53,311 bases of DNA from an uncultured bacterium (GTDB lineage: Bacteria; Patescibacteriota; Gracilibacteria; Absconditabacterales; Absconditicoccaceae). Position 1 is the first letter of the stretch. Every line of letters begins with the position of its first letter. Both the position numbers and the translations under genes were made by a program. Where the stretch lies: positions 1-53,311 of the forward strand of contig CALMFT010000025.1 of the NCBI GenBank assembly GCA_937862565.1. The letters are read 5' to 3'. Shown in pieces: positions 12,755 through 30,750 of this stretch. The notes beneath the pieces are model-generated. The model was not told the DNA's origin. It saw only the letters and a program-made list of their open reading frames with translations, and ran no database searches.

Positions 12755-15706
12755 ATGGCTACCAATACTCGTGAATCATGATTTGAAGAACTCTTTACTC
12801 GCTCACTTGTGGATGATAATGGTTTTGTCCAGAAACGATATAGTGGCGATCATACAGATCACTACGACCGTACGCAGTGTATCGATACGATGGTACTCTG
12901 GGAGTTTATCCAAGCTACACAACCTCTCGAAGTAGAGAAGCTCAAATTTGGCTATGGAGAGAACTATCAAGCACAGTTTCTCAAAAGACTGCAAAAAGAG
13001 ATCAGCGAAAAAGGGATCTTGCATGTCATGAGAAAAGGAGTCAAAGACAGAGATGCTCATATTATGCTGATGTATTTTGAGCCAAATTCTACACTCAATC
13101 CTGATCTGATTACATTACGAGAAGCAAATATCTTCACGGTCACTCGTCAGTTATATTTCAGCACACAAAATACCAAGTCAGTGGATATGGTGGTCTTGAT
13201 CAATGGACTCCCTATGGTCACTCTTGAACTCAAAAACCATCTCACTGGTCAGACGGTCACCGATGCGATGCACCAGTACAAGACAGATAGAAGTAGTCGT
13301 GAACCATTGTTTGGATTTGGAAGATGTTTGGTACATTTTGCAGTAGATACAGAGCTTGTCTATATGACCACGCATCTAGAAGATAGTAAGACACGATTTC
13401 TCCCATTCAATAAATGACATAATCAGTGAGCAGGGAATCCACCAAGCGACGATGGTATTCGTACCAGTTATATGTGGATGGAAATTCTCACTAAGTCGAG
13501 CTTATCTAAGATTATTCGTGACTTTGCACAGGTGATCACTGAGACCAAAGCAGGCAAAACATCAAAAAAACTAATCTTTCCTCGTTATCATCAATTTGAT
13601 GTGGTTCGCAAGCTTTTACAAGATAGTAAAACACAATGAACCTGACATAAGTTCCTCATCCAACATAGTGCGTGAAGTGGAAAGAGTAATTCTATATCAT
13701 GGCTTGCCCATCAGCTCACCAGTCTGTATATGGATGACGGTGTGACTAATGTATTTGACAGCATCCTTATCATCACTGATCGTAGAGTATTGGACAAACA
13801 ACTCAGAGATACCGTGAGTGGATTTGAGCATATGAGAGGTGTTGTGGAAGCTATCACTGATGGATCAAAGCAACTCAAAACAGCCCTCGAAACTGGTAAG
13901 AGAATCATCATCACCACGATCCAAAAATTCCCAATGATCGTTGATACGATAGGAGAATTGAGAGGAAATAAATTTGCTATTATTATAGATGAAGCACACT
14001 CAAGCACCTGAGGAGAAACGATCTCTAAGATGAATGCAACGATGAGTCTGGATGATGAAGAAAATACCGAAGAGAGAACTGATGAAGATATGATCCTTGA
14101 GACACTCCAATCCAGAAAGATGCTCCCTAATGCGAGTTATTTTGCCTTTACTGCTACTCCAAAAAATAAGACCCTCGAACTCTTTGGGGTACAAAATGCA
14201 GAAGGAAAATTTCAAGCATATCACAACTATACGATGAAACAAGCGATCGAAGAGTGATTTATTATGGATGTACTTGCAAACTATACCACCTATAAAAGTT
14301 ACTATGAGCTTGCAGTAATCAAAGACAATGACAAAGAATATGACAAAAAGAAAGCAAACAGACAACTCAAAGCATTTGTAGAGACACACAATGCAACCAT
14401 CGAAATTAAAGCGGATATTATGATAGATCATTTTTACAACCAAGTCTATCTCAAAGGATTGGTATGATGAAGAGCCAAAGCGATGGTAGTTTGTGGAAGT
14501 AGAAAAAGTGCAGTCAAATACTGATTTGCATTCAAAAAAATCATCAGAGAAAAAAATCTACCGCTTGGAATCATCGTGGCGTTTTCTGGAGATGTAAATC
14601 TCGATGGTCATGCTCGAAACGAAGCCAATATCAATGAGTTTAGTTCTCACAAGATACCTGACGAATTTGAAGGAGGAAGTTATCAGGTATTAATCTGTGC
14701 CAATAAATTCCAAACATGATTCGATCAGCCATTGCTCCAGACGATGTATGTTGATAAAAAACTCTGATGAGTTAATGCAGTGCAAACACTCTCTCGTCTC
14801 AATCGTGTCCATAGAGACAAAGATAGTACATTTGTATTAGATTTTTATAATGAGGAAGATGACATCAAAAAGTCATTTGAGCCATATTATAAGACCACTA
14901 TCCTTGCAAGTTGATCAGATGCAAACAAGCTCCATGATCTCAAAGATGCTTTGGATGCTTTTGGTGTCTATGATGAATATGTAGTGCGTAAATTTGCCAC
15001 CGATATTCTTAGTGGTGTGTCAGTAGAAAAACTTCATAGTTTGCTTGATACAGTAGTAGAAAATATCAAAAATCTGACTTTGGAGCAAGTTGATGATTTC
15101 AAAGATAAAGCAAAATCATATTGTAAGTTTTATGGTTTCATCTCTCAGATCATTTCGTATGATGTAGTCGAATTTGAAGAACTCTATCAATTTCTCAAGA
15201 TACTCCAAAAGAAATTGATTGATTTATGAACGAGACAAACCACATTGACTCAAGATGTATTAGACGCGGTAGATTTTGAGTCATATAAAAATCAAAAAAT
15301 GACTTCAAATGCAAGAATATCACTCTCGGAAGATGAAGAATTACAACCAATACCTACAACTCTCAAAGGTACGAGCGAACCAGAAAAAGATCTATTAGAA
15401 CATATTGTAAGTGACTTTAATACAAGATTTGGAACCAACTTCAGTAGTGAAGATAGTGTCAAAAAAATGCTCTCAGATATATCAGATGAGATCGTAGCAG
15501 ATAAAAGAATGATGGCTTCATTACAGACTACAGACAAATCAAATAGAAAGCTTGAATTTAAAAAACTATTAGACGAAAAACTCACAACCAATGTAGATGA
15601 TCATCTTGAACTCTATAATAACTATTTTGATAGTAGCGACTTCCAAGATCATCTCGTCAGATATTTGGATAAGGTAGTGAGTGAGAAGTTAAAATGATTA
15701 ATTTAA
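12755..15706 (+). CDS. hsdR: Type I restriction enzyme motor/nuclease subunit
   Basis: A 983-aa protein, full length for HsdR. The nuclease domain has the PD-(D/E)xK-like strand GLPMVTLELKN. The SF2 translocase follows with Walker A (HSAGSGKS, second Gly TGA-coded), DEAH box (IIDEAHSS) and motif III (FTATPK). The C-terminal helical region ends with EKLKGLI. HsdR cleaves unmethylated DNA after ATP-driven translocation. The TCAGATTAT element lies just upstream (12724), so hsdR may have its own transcript besides read-through from hsdS. Confidence 0.95.
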
Positions 15707-19982: not shown

Positions 19983-20897
19983 ATGAAACAATACAATGCG
20001 ACAGTCCTCGCTAAAGGACAAGTAGTTATACCAAAAGAACTGAGAGATGACCTATGAATAAATGTATGAGATAGTATGAGCTGTTTTATAAGATGATCAG
20101 CAGTTATTCTTAAAAAAAAACTTCAAACAACTTCGTATGAATTGAGTGATTCTAATTGAGATCAATTGCCAGTATGAGTCGATTTGGATGGAAAGACACT
20201 AAGCGTTGCTATTGATGAATTACAATGAATAACATGTTTGCTATGAATGTCTTGATTTGGAAAGTCAGTTCATGCCTTGAACATGATGATCAATATGTAT
20301 ACATCTTGAAAATCTATTATAATTTTTGATCCTTATGGTAATTGGATATCAGAAATTAAAAACTATCTCTCTGATTTAAGTGATAATGATTTCTATAGTT
20401 ATACAGTATGAGAATCTACTGATCGAGATGTATTAAAATCAGAAATCAAAAAAGATACAAAACAGAAGATAGTAGCCATTAATACAAATTTTCAATGAAT
20501 TTGAGCAAGAAAAGCTACTGAACTTACTACATGAATAATATTGGATTGCTTTAAAGAATTAATGAATGATTCTACTGCTGTCTTCTTAGATGAATTCTGA
20601 ACTTATTATGATGATCAAATCCGATCACAAATTATAAGTTCTTCATGATATACTTGTATTTTAGACCAATGACTGGATTATCTTTCAAGAAATCAGGTAA
20701 AAAATCTATTTAAAGATATCAATAATATTGCAATTTATCAAGTTTGATGATTAACTGCAAAATATCTTGTTGAAGACGTTGATATATCCCATACGGTTCA
20801 AGAATTGAGAAATATTGAAAAGTATCATTTTTATTTTCATTCTAACCAAAATAAAGGAAGCTGAAAATTGCTACTTTGAATATATCCATTCAATTAA
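19983..20897 (+). CDS. AbrB/SpoVT DNA-binding domain fused to a HerA/FtsK-type P-loop ATPase
   Basis: A 304-aa protein with more than 20 TGA-coded Gly. Residues 5-45 form a swapped-hairpin AbrB domain (VLAKGQVVIPKELRDDLGI, then VGDSMSCFIRGSAVIL). After a short linker the ATPase starts: Walker A GMSGFGKS at 88-95, the DPYGNW segment at 116-121 typical of HerA/VirD4-like motors, and Walker B VFLDE at 200-204. HerA-type ATPases pump or process DNA, while AbrB domains bind DNA or serve as antitoxins. The fusion suggests a sequence-directed DNA motor for partition, transfer or packaging of the element. The gene is flanked by two similar terminators, so it is a separate transcription unit. Lengths beyond the core are short; a HAS-barrel is absent. 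Confidence 0.75.
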
Positions 20898-27420: not shown

Positions 27421-27873
27421 ATGCAAAAAATTATCCCTAATTTATGGTTTAATAAAAATGCTGAAGAAGCAGTAAATTATTATCTTTCAGTATTCCCAAA
27501 TTCTAAACTTATTACTACTACCTATTACCCTACAGAAGGATTGATGGACTTCCAAAAAGATTTTGCAGGGAAAGTGTTAACCATAGATTTTGAAGTGAAC
27601 GGACAAGTATTTACCGCAATCAATGCTGGAGACGAGTTCAAATTTACGGAAGCAGTATCATTCTTGATATATTGTAAAGATCAAGAAGAGATAGATTATT
27701 ATTGGAATGAGTTTACTAAAAATGGAGGTGAAGAATCTGTATGCGGACGATGTAAAGATAAATATGGTATGAATCGACAAATTAATCCAGAAAATATGGC
27801 TGAACTCATGAATAAACCTGATGCGTATGGTAAACTTATGAATATGAAAAAGATTATCATCTCTGAATTCTAA
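27421..27873 (+). CDS. PhnB-like VOC protein
   Basis: A 150-aa VOC protein of the PhnB / so-called 3-demethylubiquinone methyltransferase-like group: IIPNLWFNKNAEEAVNYYLS, then FNGQ-type strand FEVNGQVFTAINAG, and CGRCKDKYGMNRQINPENM at the end. It is a second, distinct member of the fold in this region (see 25574). The function of this group is not established. A TCAGAATAT element lies 26 nt upstream of the ATG. Confidence 0.85.
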   Translation: MQKIIPNLWFNKNAEEAVNYYLSVFPNSKLITTTYYPTEGLMDFQKDFAGKVLTIDFEVNGQVFTAINAGDEFKFTEAVSFLIYCKDQEEIDYYWNEFTKNGGEESVCGRCKDKYGMNRQINPENMAELMNKPDAYGKLMNMKKIIISEF

Positions 27874-27879
27874 TTCACG

Positions 27880-27963
27880 ATGCCGACTTACGAACGACAG
27901 ACTACTCATAAGGATATGATAGAAGCGATGCGCAAATGTTTTTTGCCTTATCCAGAAGCTAAT
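27880..27963 (+). pseudogene. Truncated copy of the gene at 29979
   Basis: 27 residues (MPTYERQTTHKDMIEAMRKC and on) match the start of the intact gene at 29979 almost residue for residue, then end at TAG. Weak DNA similarity continues for about 40 nt beyond the stop. The 2 kb between the two copies holds a minus-strand gene of foreign character. Confidence 0.75.
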
Positions 27964-27973
27964 TAGGAAGAAT

Positions 27974-29851
27974 TTATAATGGCAATCATCATATTAAGTT
28001 TCAATTAGCTCGTTGTTGAACTCATGAAGCTTTTTTTGGCATATCATTATAATTTGATTTTTCTAGATACGTAATCGCAATCAGAGAATTATTTGTTTCA
28101 TTGAATAGAACTTTTGTACCTCAAGGTAAATGAGAATATTTATTTGATAGTTTAATATATTCTGGTAGTGATTCTAGTGTATACACTGAAATTGCATCCC
28201 CTATTTTACCTCATCACAGAAAGTCAATTCTTGCGGATTCATCATATAATCAATATTCTAATAGAAATGATGATACATATCATCAAATAGATCAATGTGC
28301 ATTTACTTCGTGATCATCAATAATGTTGTTACTTTCATTTAGATTATGTTTAACGTCTCTATATGGTTTATTATTATTGCTTATAGGTAATATTTCACAA
28401 AATTCTGATACTATCTTTACGCCGTCCTTAAATGTAGAAACTTGTCGTATATTTTTTCCAGATTTGGTTGCTCATATACATTTTATATCATCATATATAT
28501 TTAATTTTCATGATATTAATTTATTATTATTGTAGAAAGTAGGAATACGATCAGCGTCTTTGTTTTCTGGAAATTCATAATAAATTGTTTTTGTTACAAA
28601 TTCTTTATCTGGTATGTGGTATTTTAATGATTGCCAATGAAATACATCTATTGTTCATATAAGTTTATTAAATGGGATTTTCTGTGGAAGAAACCATGAG
28701 ACTCATTTACTTATATCAGGAATAGCTCATCATGATACATACAGCTTATATGATATTGGTGCATTATTATCATATAAGTATTTATTTATTTTTTCACATA
28801 TTTCATTTAATCTTTTGTATTCTTTTTTAAATAGTCATCATTCTTCTCATTTATATTTAATTTCTGCTCAAGCTATATGTCATCCTGCACCAAATGGAGC
28901 TAATATGATACGTTTACATCAAGAAGGAATTGATCATTCTTTTAAGACAGTATCTAAGCCAAATAGTACGGACGCACCTGACAAATTACCCATATTTTTG
29001 TATGTCTCTTTGTGGACTACTATGTTGTGTCATTTTTTTCTAGCTTTACTAATAATTTTTGAATTATCTGATCGCTTTGTTATCATTCTACCATTTGGTT
29101 GATGTGGAATAATAAGTGTTTCAGAAGTTAACTTATTAATTGATAATAAAGAAAATATTTCATCCGCTGTATAGAGAAGTGATGTGCTCAATGCTTTGCC
29201 ATCATGCATTGTTATTTTCTCTCCTTCTGACTGTGAAATAGCTTTTACATTAGTATAATCTACTCACTGTGATATAGCGGATCAGGTTTTCATTATATTC
29301 ATTTTTGAGTGTCAATCTGGGTTATTCGATATAATCATACTTGCCACTCAATCAGAAAACATTCCAGTTTTAATATCAGTAAGCTCTCTTTGTCCGCTCC
29401 CTAGATTATCTCCAGCTGCGACAATATAATTTCTATGCTTAAAATATCCATCACTCTTGATTTGTTTACTTGCCACATCTAACGCATCTCAAAACCCTAC
29501 ACAGGCTGAATTAATATCTTTAGCAATAAATCATTTCTTCTTATTCATTCCTAATTTTGTAGCGATTAAGGATGATAAACTAATTACCTTATCTCAATGT
29601 GATCATGAATGTGAAAGAAATATGCCATCAATATCTTCAACAGTCAATCTTGAATTTATTAAAGCTTTTAAAATACTATCAATAAACATATTTTCCACTT
29701 TTCATTGGTTTTTTTCTATATAAAATACATTCTCAAGTTCAGTTCTTGAAGTCAAAAATCATTTCTCAAGTCATGCCATAGTACAGATCTCTTCTTCGGA
29801 AATTTTTAAATTTCCCAATGAAGTACCTATTCAAAGTATTTTAGTTTCCAT
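27974..29851 (-). CDS. Ketoacyl synthase III-like protein with C-terminal extension
   Basis: A 625-aa minus-strand frame with about 30 TGA-coded Gly and no internal stop. The first ~345 residues are a thiolase-fold KAS III: DINSACVGFGDAL with the active-site Cys at 117, IIPHQPNGRMI with His at 250, and YKNMGNLSGAS with Asn at 289, plus the C-terminal LAPFGAGGHIAGAEI. The Cys-His-Asn order and spacing agree with FabH. FabH joins an acyl-CoA to malonyl-ACP. The remaining 280 residues are unusual; the end (GGKIGDAISVYTLESL, LPGGTKVLFNET, LIAITYLE) looks like a hotdog thioesterase or dehydratase fold, while the middle (DVFHWQSLKYHIPD and following) is unrecognised. No ACP or malonyl transferase gene is nearby, so the substrate is unknown. 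Confidence 0.75.
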
Positions 29852-29978
29852 CTACTAATCATTGATTTTAATAAATTTATTTAACATCTATAGATAATAT
29901 TTTATAAAAGTCAATCTTTTTGAACTAAAATTAGTGTTATTGAAATGAAGTATTAAATATATAAAAATTGTTTATACT
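29852..29978. other. Divergent promoter region
   Basis: A very AT-rich 127-nt gap between the minus-strand KAS III-like gene and the plus-strand 117-aa gene. No other gene seen. Confidence 0.4.
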
Positions 29979-30332
29979 ATGACTTACGAACGACAAACAA
30001 CCCATAAGAAAATGATAGAAGCGATGCGTAAATGTTTTTTGTCTTATCCAGATTCTCAGGAGGAGATTAGACATTATGGTATCAAACGATTTTTCCCGAA
30101 TGGTATGCGATGCGATCTGATATTCTATAAAAAATCATTAAATATTCTGAGATTTAATCGTGGGGCATGGATGGTGAGAGAAAATCCAGTATTGGGGTGA
30201 CTCTTTGATGAAGTGAATAAGGTAATAGCTAAGATGCAATTAGTAACTCCTGATGATATAGAAAACAAAGCTATTCCAGAATTGATTGCATTGATTGCAA
30301 AAGCTCCCTCTGGAATAAGATACGATGCTTAG
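29979..30332 (+). CDS. Hypothetical protein, intact copy of the truncated gene at 27880
   Basis: A 117-aa protein starting MTYERQTTHKKMIEAMRKC, with FFPNGMRCDLIFYKKSLNIL and a helical C-terminus (ENKAIPELIALIAKA). One Gly is TGA. The family is not recognised, but the Lys/Arg-rich, single-domain layout is compact and complete. The 5' third is duplicated in truncated form on the other side of the KAS III-like gene. The next gene follows 28 nt later. Confidence 0.65.
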
Positions 30333-30360
30333 AACTTTTTTATTATCCTTAATATTTATT

Positions 30361-30750
30361 ATGAACTCAGAAATCCAAGAATATAATAATCTCCTTAATG
30401 GGGAAGAAAAGAAAATCTGTGATACTCTTGTGGAGGAAATAACAAAACATCTCAAAGGTACGACTTCCAAGATACGACATGGTCATCCGGTGCGATTCTT
30501 GGAAGAAAATCCGATCGTGGGATATAGCAAACAAAAAAGAGGAATAGTTCTTCTGTTTTGGAGTGGACAATCATTTGAGGAAGCTGGTCTTTCTGCTGAA
30601 GGAACTTTCAAAGCTGCAGAAAAAGTATATACGAGTAGTGATCAAATCGACATTGAAGAACTTGAAAACTGGCTCAAAAAATCTCGGGCTATTCAACGAG
30701 ATTACAAAAATATAGTAAAATGCAAAGGTCAATTGGAAAGATTATCTTAA
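30361..30750 (+). CDS. DUF1801 (YdhG-like) protein
   Basis: A 129-aa protein. The conserved stretch KIRHGHPVRFLEENPIVGYS followed by KRGIVLLFWSGQSFEEAGL corresponds to the DUF1801 barrel (I-x-Y-G-M-P-x-F..., then a strand with hydrophobics). The N-terminal helix EEKKICDTLVEEITKHL is typical too. Function unknown; the fold is related to frataxin-like and may bind iron or ligands. ATG 30361 was preferred to an upstream TTG. Confidence 0.7.
   Translation: MNSEIQEYNNLLNGEEKKICDTLVEEITKHLKGTTSKIRHGHPVRFLEENPIVGYSKQKRGIVLLFWSGQSFEEAGLSAEGTFKAAEKVYTSSDQIDIEELENWLKKSRAIQRDYKNIVKCKGQLERLS

Follow-up and report, generated by a model that had tools for sequence, protein, structure and literature searches.

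KAS III condensing enzymes require an acyl thioester together with a malonyl-type thioester. The hotdog enzymes described closest to the protein analysed here include FatA, whose residues Asp262-x-Asn264-x-His266 lie in its catalytic C-terminal hotdog (PMC12713704), and ShMKS2 of tomato, which hydrolyses beta-ketoacyl thioesters to beta-keto acids and uses ACP substrates (PMC6678348). CPR and SR1 bacteria have been described as unable to make lipids. SR1/Absconditabacteria are regarded as host-dependent for lipids (PMC8080830, PMC8406219), and SR1 relatives such as Vampirococcus live without lipid synthesis on host content (PMC8080830). Within our incomplete coverage of the literature, we found no description of a KAS III-hotdog fusion or of a KAS from SR1.

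The window, i.e., the whole stretch of 53,311 nt that was analysed, is contig C25 of a 1.27-Mb genome (G000). This genome is 93% complete, so absences from it are not absolute. In the SR1/Gracilibacteria code TGA stands for glycine, and reading in this code (code 25) joins the window's reading frames. The gene of interest and its surroundings are arranged as follows.

27421-27873, plus strand: left neighbour, Pfam match to PF06983 (3-demethylubiquinone-9 3-methyltransferase / glyoxalase-like).
27880-27968, plus strand: truncated duplicate of the first part of the gene at 29979, with TAG after 28 codons (from reading frame and repeat comparison).
27974-29851, minus strand: 625-aa fusion gene of a KAS III and a predicted double hotdog, a single frame with 37 in-frame TGA codons.
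28049-28702, minus strand: probable double-hotdog region, residues 384-601 (from the strand/helix pattern of the model, VIA-align and conservation).
28703-28846, minus strand: helical linker, residues 336-383 (from a low-confidence model; no family match).
28847-29851, minus strand: KAS III domain, residues 1-335, with Cys117, His250 and Asn289 (from Pfam, NCBIfam and PDB sequence matches and triad alignment).
29852-29978: AT-rich gap of 127 nt that separates the fusion gene from the intact, divergently oriented gene at 29979.
29979-30332, plus strand: intact 117-aa gene, read in code 25, without an assigned family.
30325-30750, plus strand: right neighbour, weak DUF1801 match below cut-off in the Pfam search.

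The gap at 29852-29978 is the probable promoter region of the fusion gene. With a GC content of 28.8%, the fusion gene lies below the window (33.8%). Another TGA-rich, low-GC gene is found at 19983-20897 of the window; it has TGA at 20 of 25 glycine codons, a MazE-like N-terminus and weak matches to HerA/TrwB-type ATPases.

Judged by its sequence, the segment of residues 1-335 is a divergent KAS III, far from known KAS III. Both PF08545 (24.3 vs 24 bits) and PF08541 (29.1 vs 26.6 bits) score above their gathering thresholds, and the NCBIfam FabH-type models cover residues 1-332 below their cut-offs (TIGR00747, 85.5 vs 292.1 bits; NF006829, 87.6 vs 249 bits). All 37 PDB sequence matches of the fusion protein are KAS III or type III PKS relatives, apart from one chance match. 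The triad of E. coli FabH (C112, H244, N274) is matched in the alignment by Cys117, His250 and Asn289, and is present in P0002, P0003 and P0004. The sequence-only reading had proposed a 625-aa KAS III-like protein with intact Cys-His-Asn, encoded by the sole long minus-strand gene of the area; the Pfam scores and the triad alignment bear out the former, and the latter holds between about 24.5 and 32.2 kb. Identity of the KAS III half to the reference sequences tried is about 18-26%. W32 and R151 of E. coli FabH are replaced by Phe and Asp, which presumably weakens FabH's usual CoA adenine clamp.

The C-terminal part had been left unexplained. Sequence searches with residues 336-625 gave nothing usable in the PDB, Pfam or NCBIfam, and no hotdog profile even at an E-value of 10, in Pfam and NCBIfam searches whose filters drop weak matches. 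Two AlphaFold2 runs on a four-row alignment yielded models of low confidence (mean pLDDT 43 and 46), both of which show a helix followed by strands twice, at residues about 394-487 and 522-596. When the C-terminal model was compared by VIA-align, nearly all of the top 50 rows were hotdog proteins (best match: Z 8.6, rmsd 4.5, 159 residues), including ACOT7, ACOT12, TesB, FatA, LnmK, hydratase 2, HtdX and FAS dehydratase domains at Z 7-8.6; the top rows of Foldseek agreed with this assignment. The C-terminal part probably has a double-hotdog fold, and we put this no higher because Z values near 8 are common and can arise by chance according to the tool's own note.

Within residues 384-601, the motifs D/E515-x-N517-x-H519 and 402-D(V/I)FHWQ-407 are conserved. 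The conservation is seen in P0003 and, for the two halves of the region, also in the fragments P0004 and P0005. The D/E-x-N-x-H motif precedes the second central helix, matching Asp262-Asn264-His266 of FatA, and FatA Asn269 and Glu300 have no conserved counterpart in the fusion family, judged by eye on the alignment (positions from PMC12713704). Going beyond the sequence-only reading, the modelled fold suggests that the fusion protein is probably a condense-and-process enzyme rather than a lone KAS.

Homologues are rare. Among 353 genomes of the class, profile matches were obtained in the window's genome, in G012 and G022, which both belong to one other genus of the same family and hold the only two homologues besides the window's, and as a distant KAS III in G031. 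A sample of 379 other genomes of the phylum gave no match to the C-terminal part. The gene of G012 (JAPLUT, an SR1 MAG from Lac Pavin) is complete and has the same full-length architecture as that of the window; in G022 (JAHFJL), contig ends split it into P0004 and P0005, consistent with a fusion. The gene of the other genus lies between ValS and the prepilin peptidase PilD (genes named by eye), a locus unrelated to that of the window. In six further genomes of that genus (G031, G040, G043, G045, G047 and G048), PilD stands beside ValS without a KAS gene, with about 230 nt between the two in G045. This patchy distribution, the two different sites and the ValS-PilD slot without the gene in six genomes show that the fusion gene is an accessory, mobile gene moving between sites in SR1 genomes, and not one conserved at the same place in all relatives. 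The ValS-PilD slot in the genus of G012 is variable in general (L052-L057, L059 and L060): depending on the genome, it is empty or occupied by the KAS fusion, by an antitoxin-like gene or by repeated ORF12-type genes.

The gene is under purifying selection, as judged from dN/dS estimates of 0.05-0.33 in the two halves, which are rough because synonymous sites are close to saturated. In the phylogeny of the KAS domain, from which one row (Streptantibioticus) was left out because of a wrong frame, the three fusion proteins form one isolated clade without a nearest bacterial group, so that no donor could be named. The KAS protein of G031 groups with this clade at 99/99, only through very long branches, and this grouping may be false. 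Carriage by phages received no match, including scans of IMG/VR. Carriage by plasmids was considered and rejected, since the matches of the listed plasmid records are ordinary KAS III proteins with 22-26% identity over the KAS half only.

The start of the gene at 29979 had been read as duplicated at 27880 in diverged and truncated form, and this was confirmed. An ungapped repeat of 84 nt (27885-27968) is 86% identical to the first ~84 nt of the gene, and its core (27885-27956 versus 29981-30052) matches at 65 of 72 nt (90%; E-value 4e-22 against the whole window). The frame of the left copy opens at 27880 and is truncated by its early TAG, and 5 nt separate the repeat's end from the stop of the fusion gene. 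The core copies differ at seven sites, five of which are third codon positions; this hints that both copies were probably coding during much of their divergence and argues against a fresh target-site duplication. The further proposal that an insertion broke the left copy gained no support: the two look rather like coding paralogues that have diverged, or like the outcome of recombination. We favour homologous recombination with, or insertion beside, a diverged paralogue over a decayed target-site duplication. The search for transposon ends at the locus gave, besides the 84-nt duplication, just short repeats at chance level.

The family of the 29979 gene is multi-copy and patchy, with a match in 13-14 of about 98 other genomes sampled. 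A second paralogue lies in the same genome (C13:11770-12102, 55% identity), and the best match outside it is in G009 (69%). There, a glyoxalase-like gene, the 69% homologue and a DUF1801-like gene follow consecutively without a KAS gene (neighbours named by eye). This arrangement was rejected as a clean empty site since its neighbours are not close homologues of those in the window. Comparison of relatives, suggested earlier as a check on the insertion, gave unoccupied ValS-PilD slots, and no clean empty site for the window locus among the genomes compared.

The sequence-only reading had also assumed that fatty acid synthesis is usually lacking in these bacteria. Profile searches of the window's genome found no ACP (PF00550), ACP synthase (PF01648), KAS I/II (PF00109) or FabG-type protein (PF13561), and CoaE was not found either; the same searches matched in 10-14 control genomes. 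There is thus no detectable fatty acid system, let alone a complete set of FAS genes, in this genome, and the proposed search for an acyl carrier protein elsewhere in it was negative. G012 and G022 likewise gave no ACP, ACP synthase or KAS I/II in profile searches with positive controls, and among the three fusion-bearing genomes the FabG-type/SDR search matched just in these two. CoaE is present in G012, and its absence from the matches in the window's genome makes the CoA supply there uncertain. The missing fatty acid genes agree with the published host-dependence for lipids (PMC8080830, PMC8406219).

For the fusion protein as a whole, there is about an even chance that it is a bifunctional enzyme in which a KAS III condensing domain and a C-terminal double hotdog make up a self-contained condense-and-release system. 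We infer all of its chemistry, i.e., activity, substrates, product and role. Cys117 would be loaded with the acyl group of a thioester. Acyl-CoA is the likeliest donor because no ACP or ACP synthase was found in the genome; lacking ACP, the cell would have to use host material or else esters of CoA that it makes or imports. Condensation with a malonyl-type extender would follow, with His250 and Asn289 assisting decarboxylation. Since no FabG-type reductase was detected, the beta-ketoacyl thioester formed first would remain unreduced, and its release would be the simplest job for the fused hotdog. The double hotdog would most likely either hydrolyse this thioester, giving a free beta-keto acid that might decarboxylate to a methyl ketone, or transfer the acyl group. 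Release is favoured over a reduce-dehydrate cycle because of the missing ACP, ACP synthase and KAS I/II in all three genomes and the missing FabG-type protein in G000, and we also count the separate KAS III and hotdog genes of G031 (the latter assigned as thioesterase by eye), in which the same two activities adjoin, toward this explanation. Against it stand the poor C-terminal models, the missing profile match, the absent counterparts of FatA Asn269 and Glu300, the changes at FabH W32 and R151, and the CoaE not found in the window's genome.

The double hotdog could instead be a hydratase or dehydratase (MaoC- or hydratase-2-like), making the protein part of a beta-oxidation-like or reduced fatty-acid cycle whose reductases are encoded at other loci. 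Hydratase 2, HtdX and FAS dehydratase domains do occur among the structural matches and SDR-type proteins are encoded in G012 and G022, but the window's genome has no PF13561 reductase, none of the three genomes has ACP or KAS I/II, and the conserved spacing is D-x-N-x-H, not the D-x-N-P-x-H motif of hydratase 2, which makes this reading unlikely. Rather unlikely, too, is an acyltransferase resembling LnmK or AfsA, the latter an analogous acyltransferase use of the hotdog fold, that would pass the beta-ketoacyl group to a small acceptor to give a signal or modified lipid. One of the top structural matches is LnmK, which is an acyltransferase/decarboxylase, and a product of a single round fits a KAS that has no other elongation enzymes with it; at neither locus, however, were genes for making an acceptor or sensing a signal recognised beside the fusion gene.

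A third reading concerns the substrate. Taken up with the cytoplasm, the acyl-CoA or acyl-ACP pool of the host or prey could be what the enzyme works on, in a lipid-scavenging or host-manipulating rather than a biosynthetic role. The lifestyle of Vampirococcus-type SR1 relatives, without lipid synthesis and living on host content (PMC8080830), and the lack of a detected own ACP or CoaE in the window's genome fit this, but CoaE in G012 makes an own CoA pool plausible there, and a putative uptake of host ACP or CoA would be needed; we regard it as quite improbable. Low GC content, location on the other strand and patchy distribution would also be seen if a contaminating or mis-assembled foreign gene had entered the MAG. 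Against such an artefact, 37 of 60 glycine codons of the gene are TGA, which makes it fully adapted to the host code and argues that it is old in this code, and the same protein is encoded, with 39 and 30 TGA codons, by two further genomes that use code 25. Contamination of the window is refuted by these two observations, leaving an artefact of any kind extremely improbable.

Returning to condense-and-release, the earlier idea that the enzyme makes an unusual acyl compound alone finds partial support in the lack of detected FAS genes, and the signal or lipid-modification role attached to it was not borne out. More tentatively, the mobile fusion might let a lipid-auxotrophic SR1 bacterium run one condense-and-release round without ACP or FAS, with a specific product, be it a beta-keto acid, a methyl ketone or an acyl signal, that is secreted and used towards the host. 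A conserved, selected and mobile condensing enzyme without any other detected fatty acid gene implies that the enzyme is dedicated to one acyl product; the compact, expressible fusion protein offers a handle for identifying it.

At L062 (G031:C19, 184-5073), seven consecutive genes lack internal TGA, unlike the remainder of the contig, which follows code 25; they include a KAS III whose frame ends in TGA, an overlapping hotdog thioesterase-like gene and radical-SAM-like and methyltransferase-like genes. This TGA-free region at the end of a code-25 contig is either a recent transfer or an assembly chimera. L064 (G031:C16) holds two small free-standing acyl-carrier-protein-like genes (13463-13708 and 14179-14439) with GDSLD and ADSLD motifs, although no ACP is seen in the relatives of this SR1 genome. 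In G160, of the same phylum, a KAS III lies beside a KAS II-like and an enoyl-reductase/SDR-like gene (L039): fatty acid synthesis does appear to be encoded in part of the phylum.

Compared with known systems, the fusion protein shares with FabH the fold, the Cys-His-Asn triad, the match to PF08545 and PF08541 and about 23% identity (E. coli FabH). It differs in scores far under the FabH model cut-offs, in the loss of W32 and R151, in the lack of a FAS operon and of ACP, and in an added C-terminal part of 290 aa. With FatA/FatB, TesB and ACOT7/12 it shares a probable tandem hotdog fold, as modelled, and the D/E-x-N-x-H motif as in FatA, and is set apart by the missing profile match, the missing equivalents of FatA Asn269 and Glu300 and the attached KAS. 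To ShMKS2, plant methylketone synthase 2 (PMC6678348), the resemblance is an analogy of function only, in that the fusion protein, too, would yield a beta-keto acid by hydrolysing a beta-ketoacyl thioester; the tomato enzyme is a stand-alone single hotdog whose substrates are ACP-bound intermediates from a complete FAS. A further related arrangement is the pair in G031 (L005), a genome from the genus of G012 and G022, in which a KAS III overlaps a hotdog thioesterase-like gene by 4 nt (thioesterase assigned by eye). It differs from the fusion in consisting of separate genes, with 24-28% identity, no in-frame TGA and the very long branches that join its KAS to the fusion clade.
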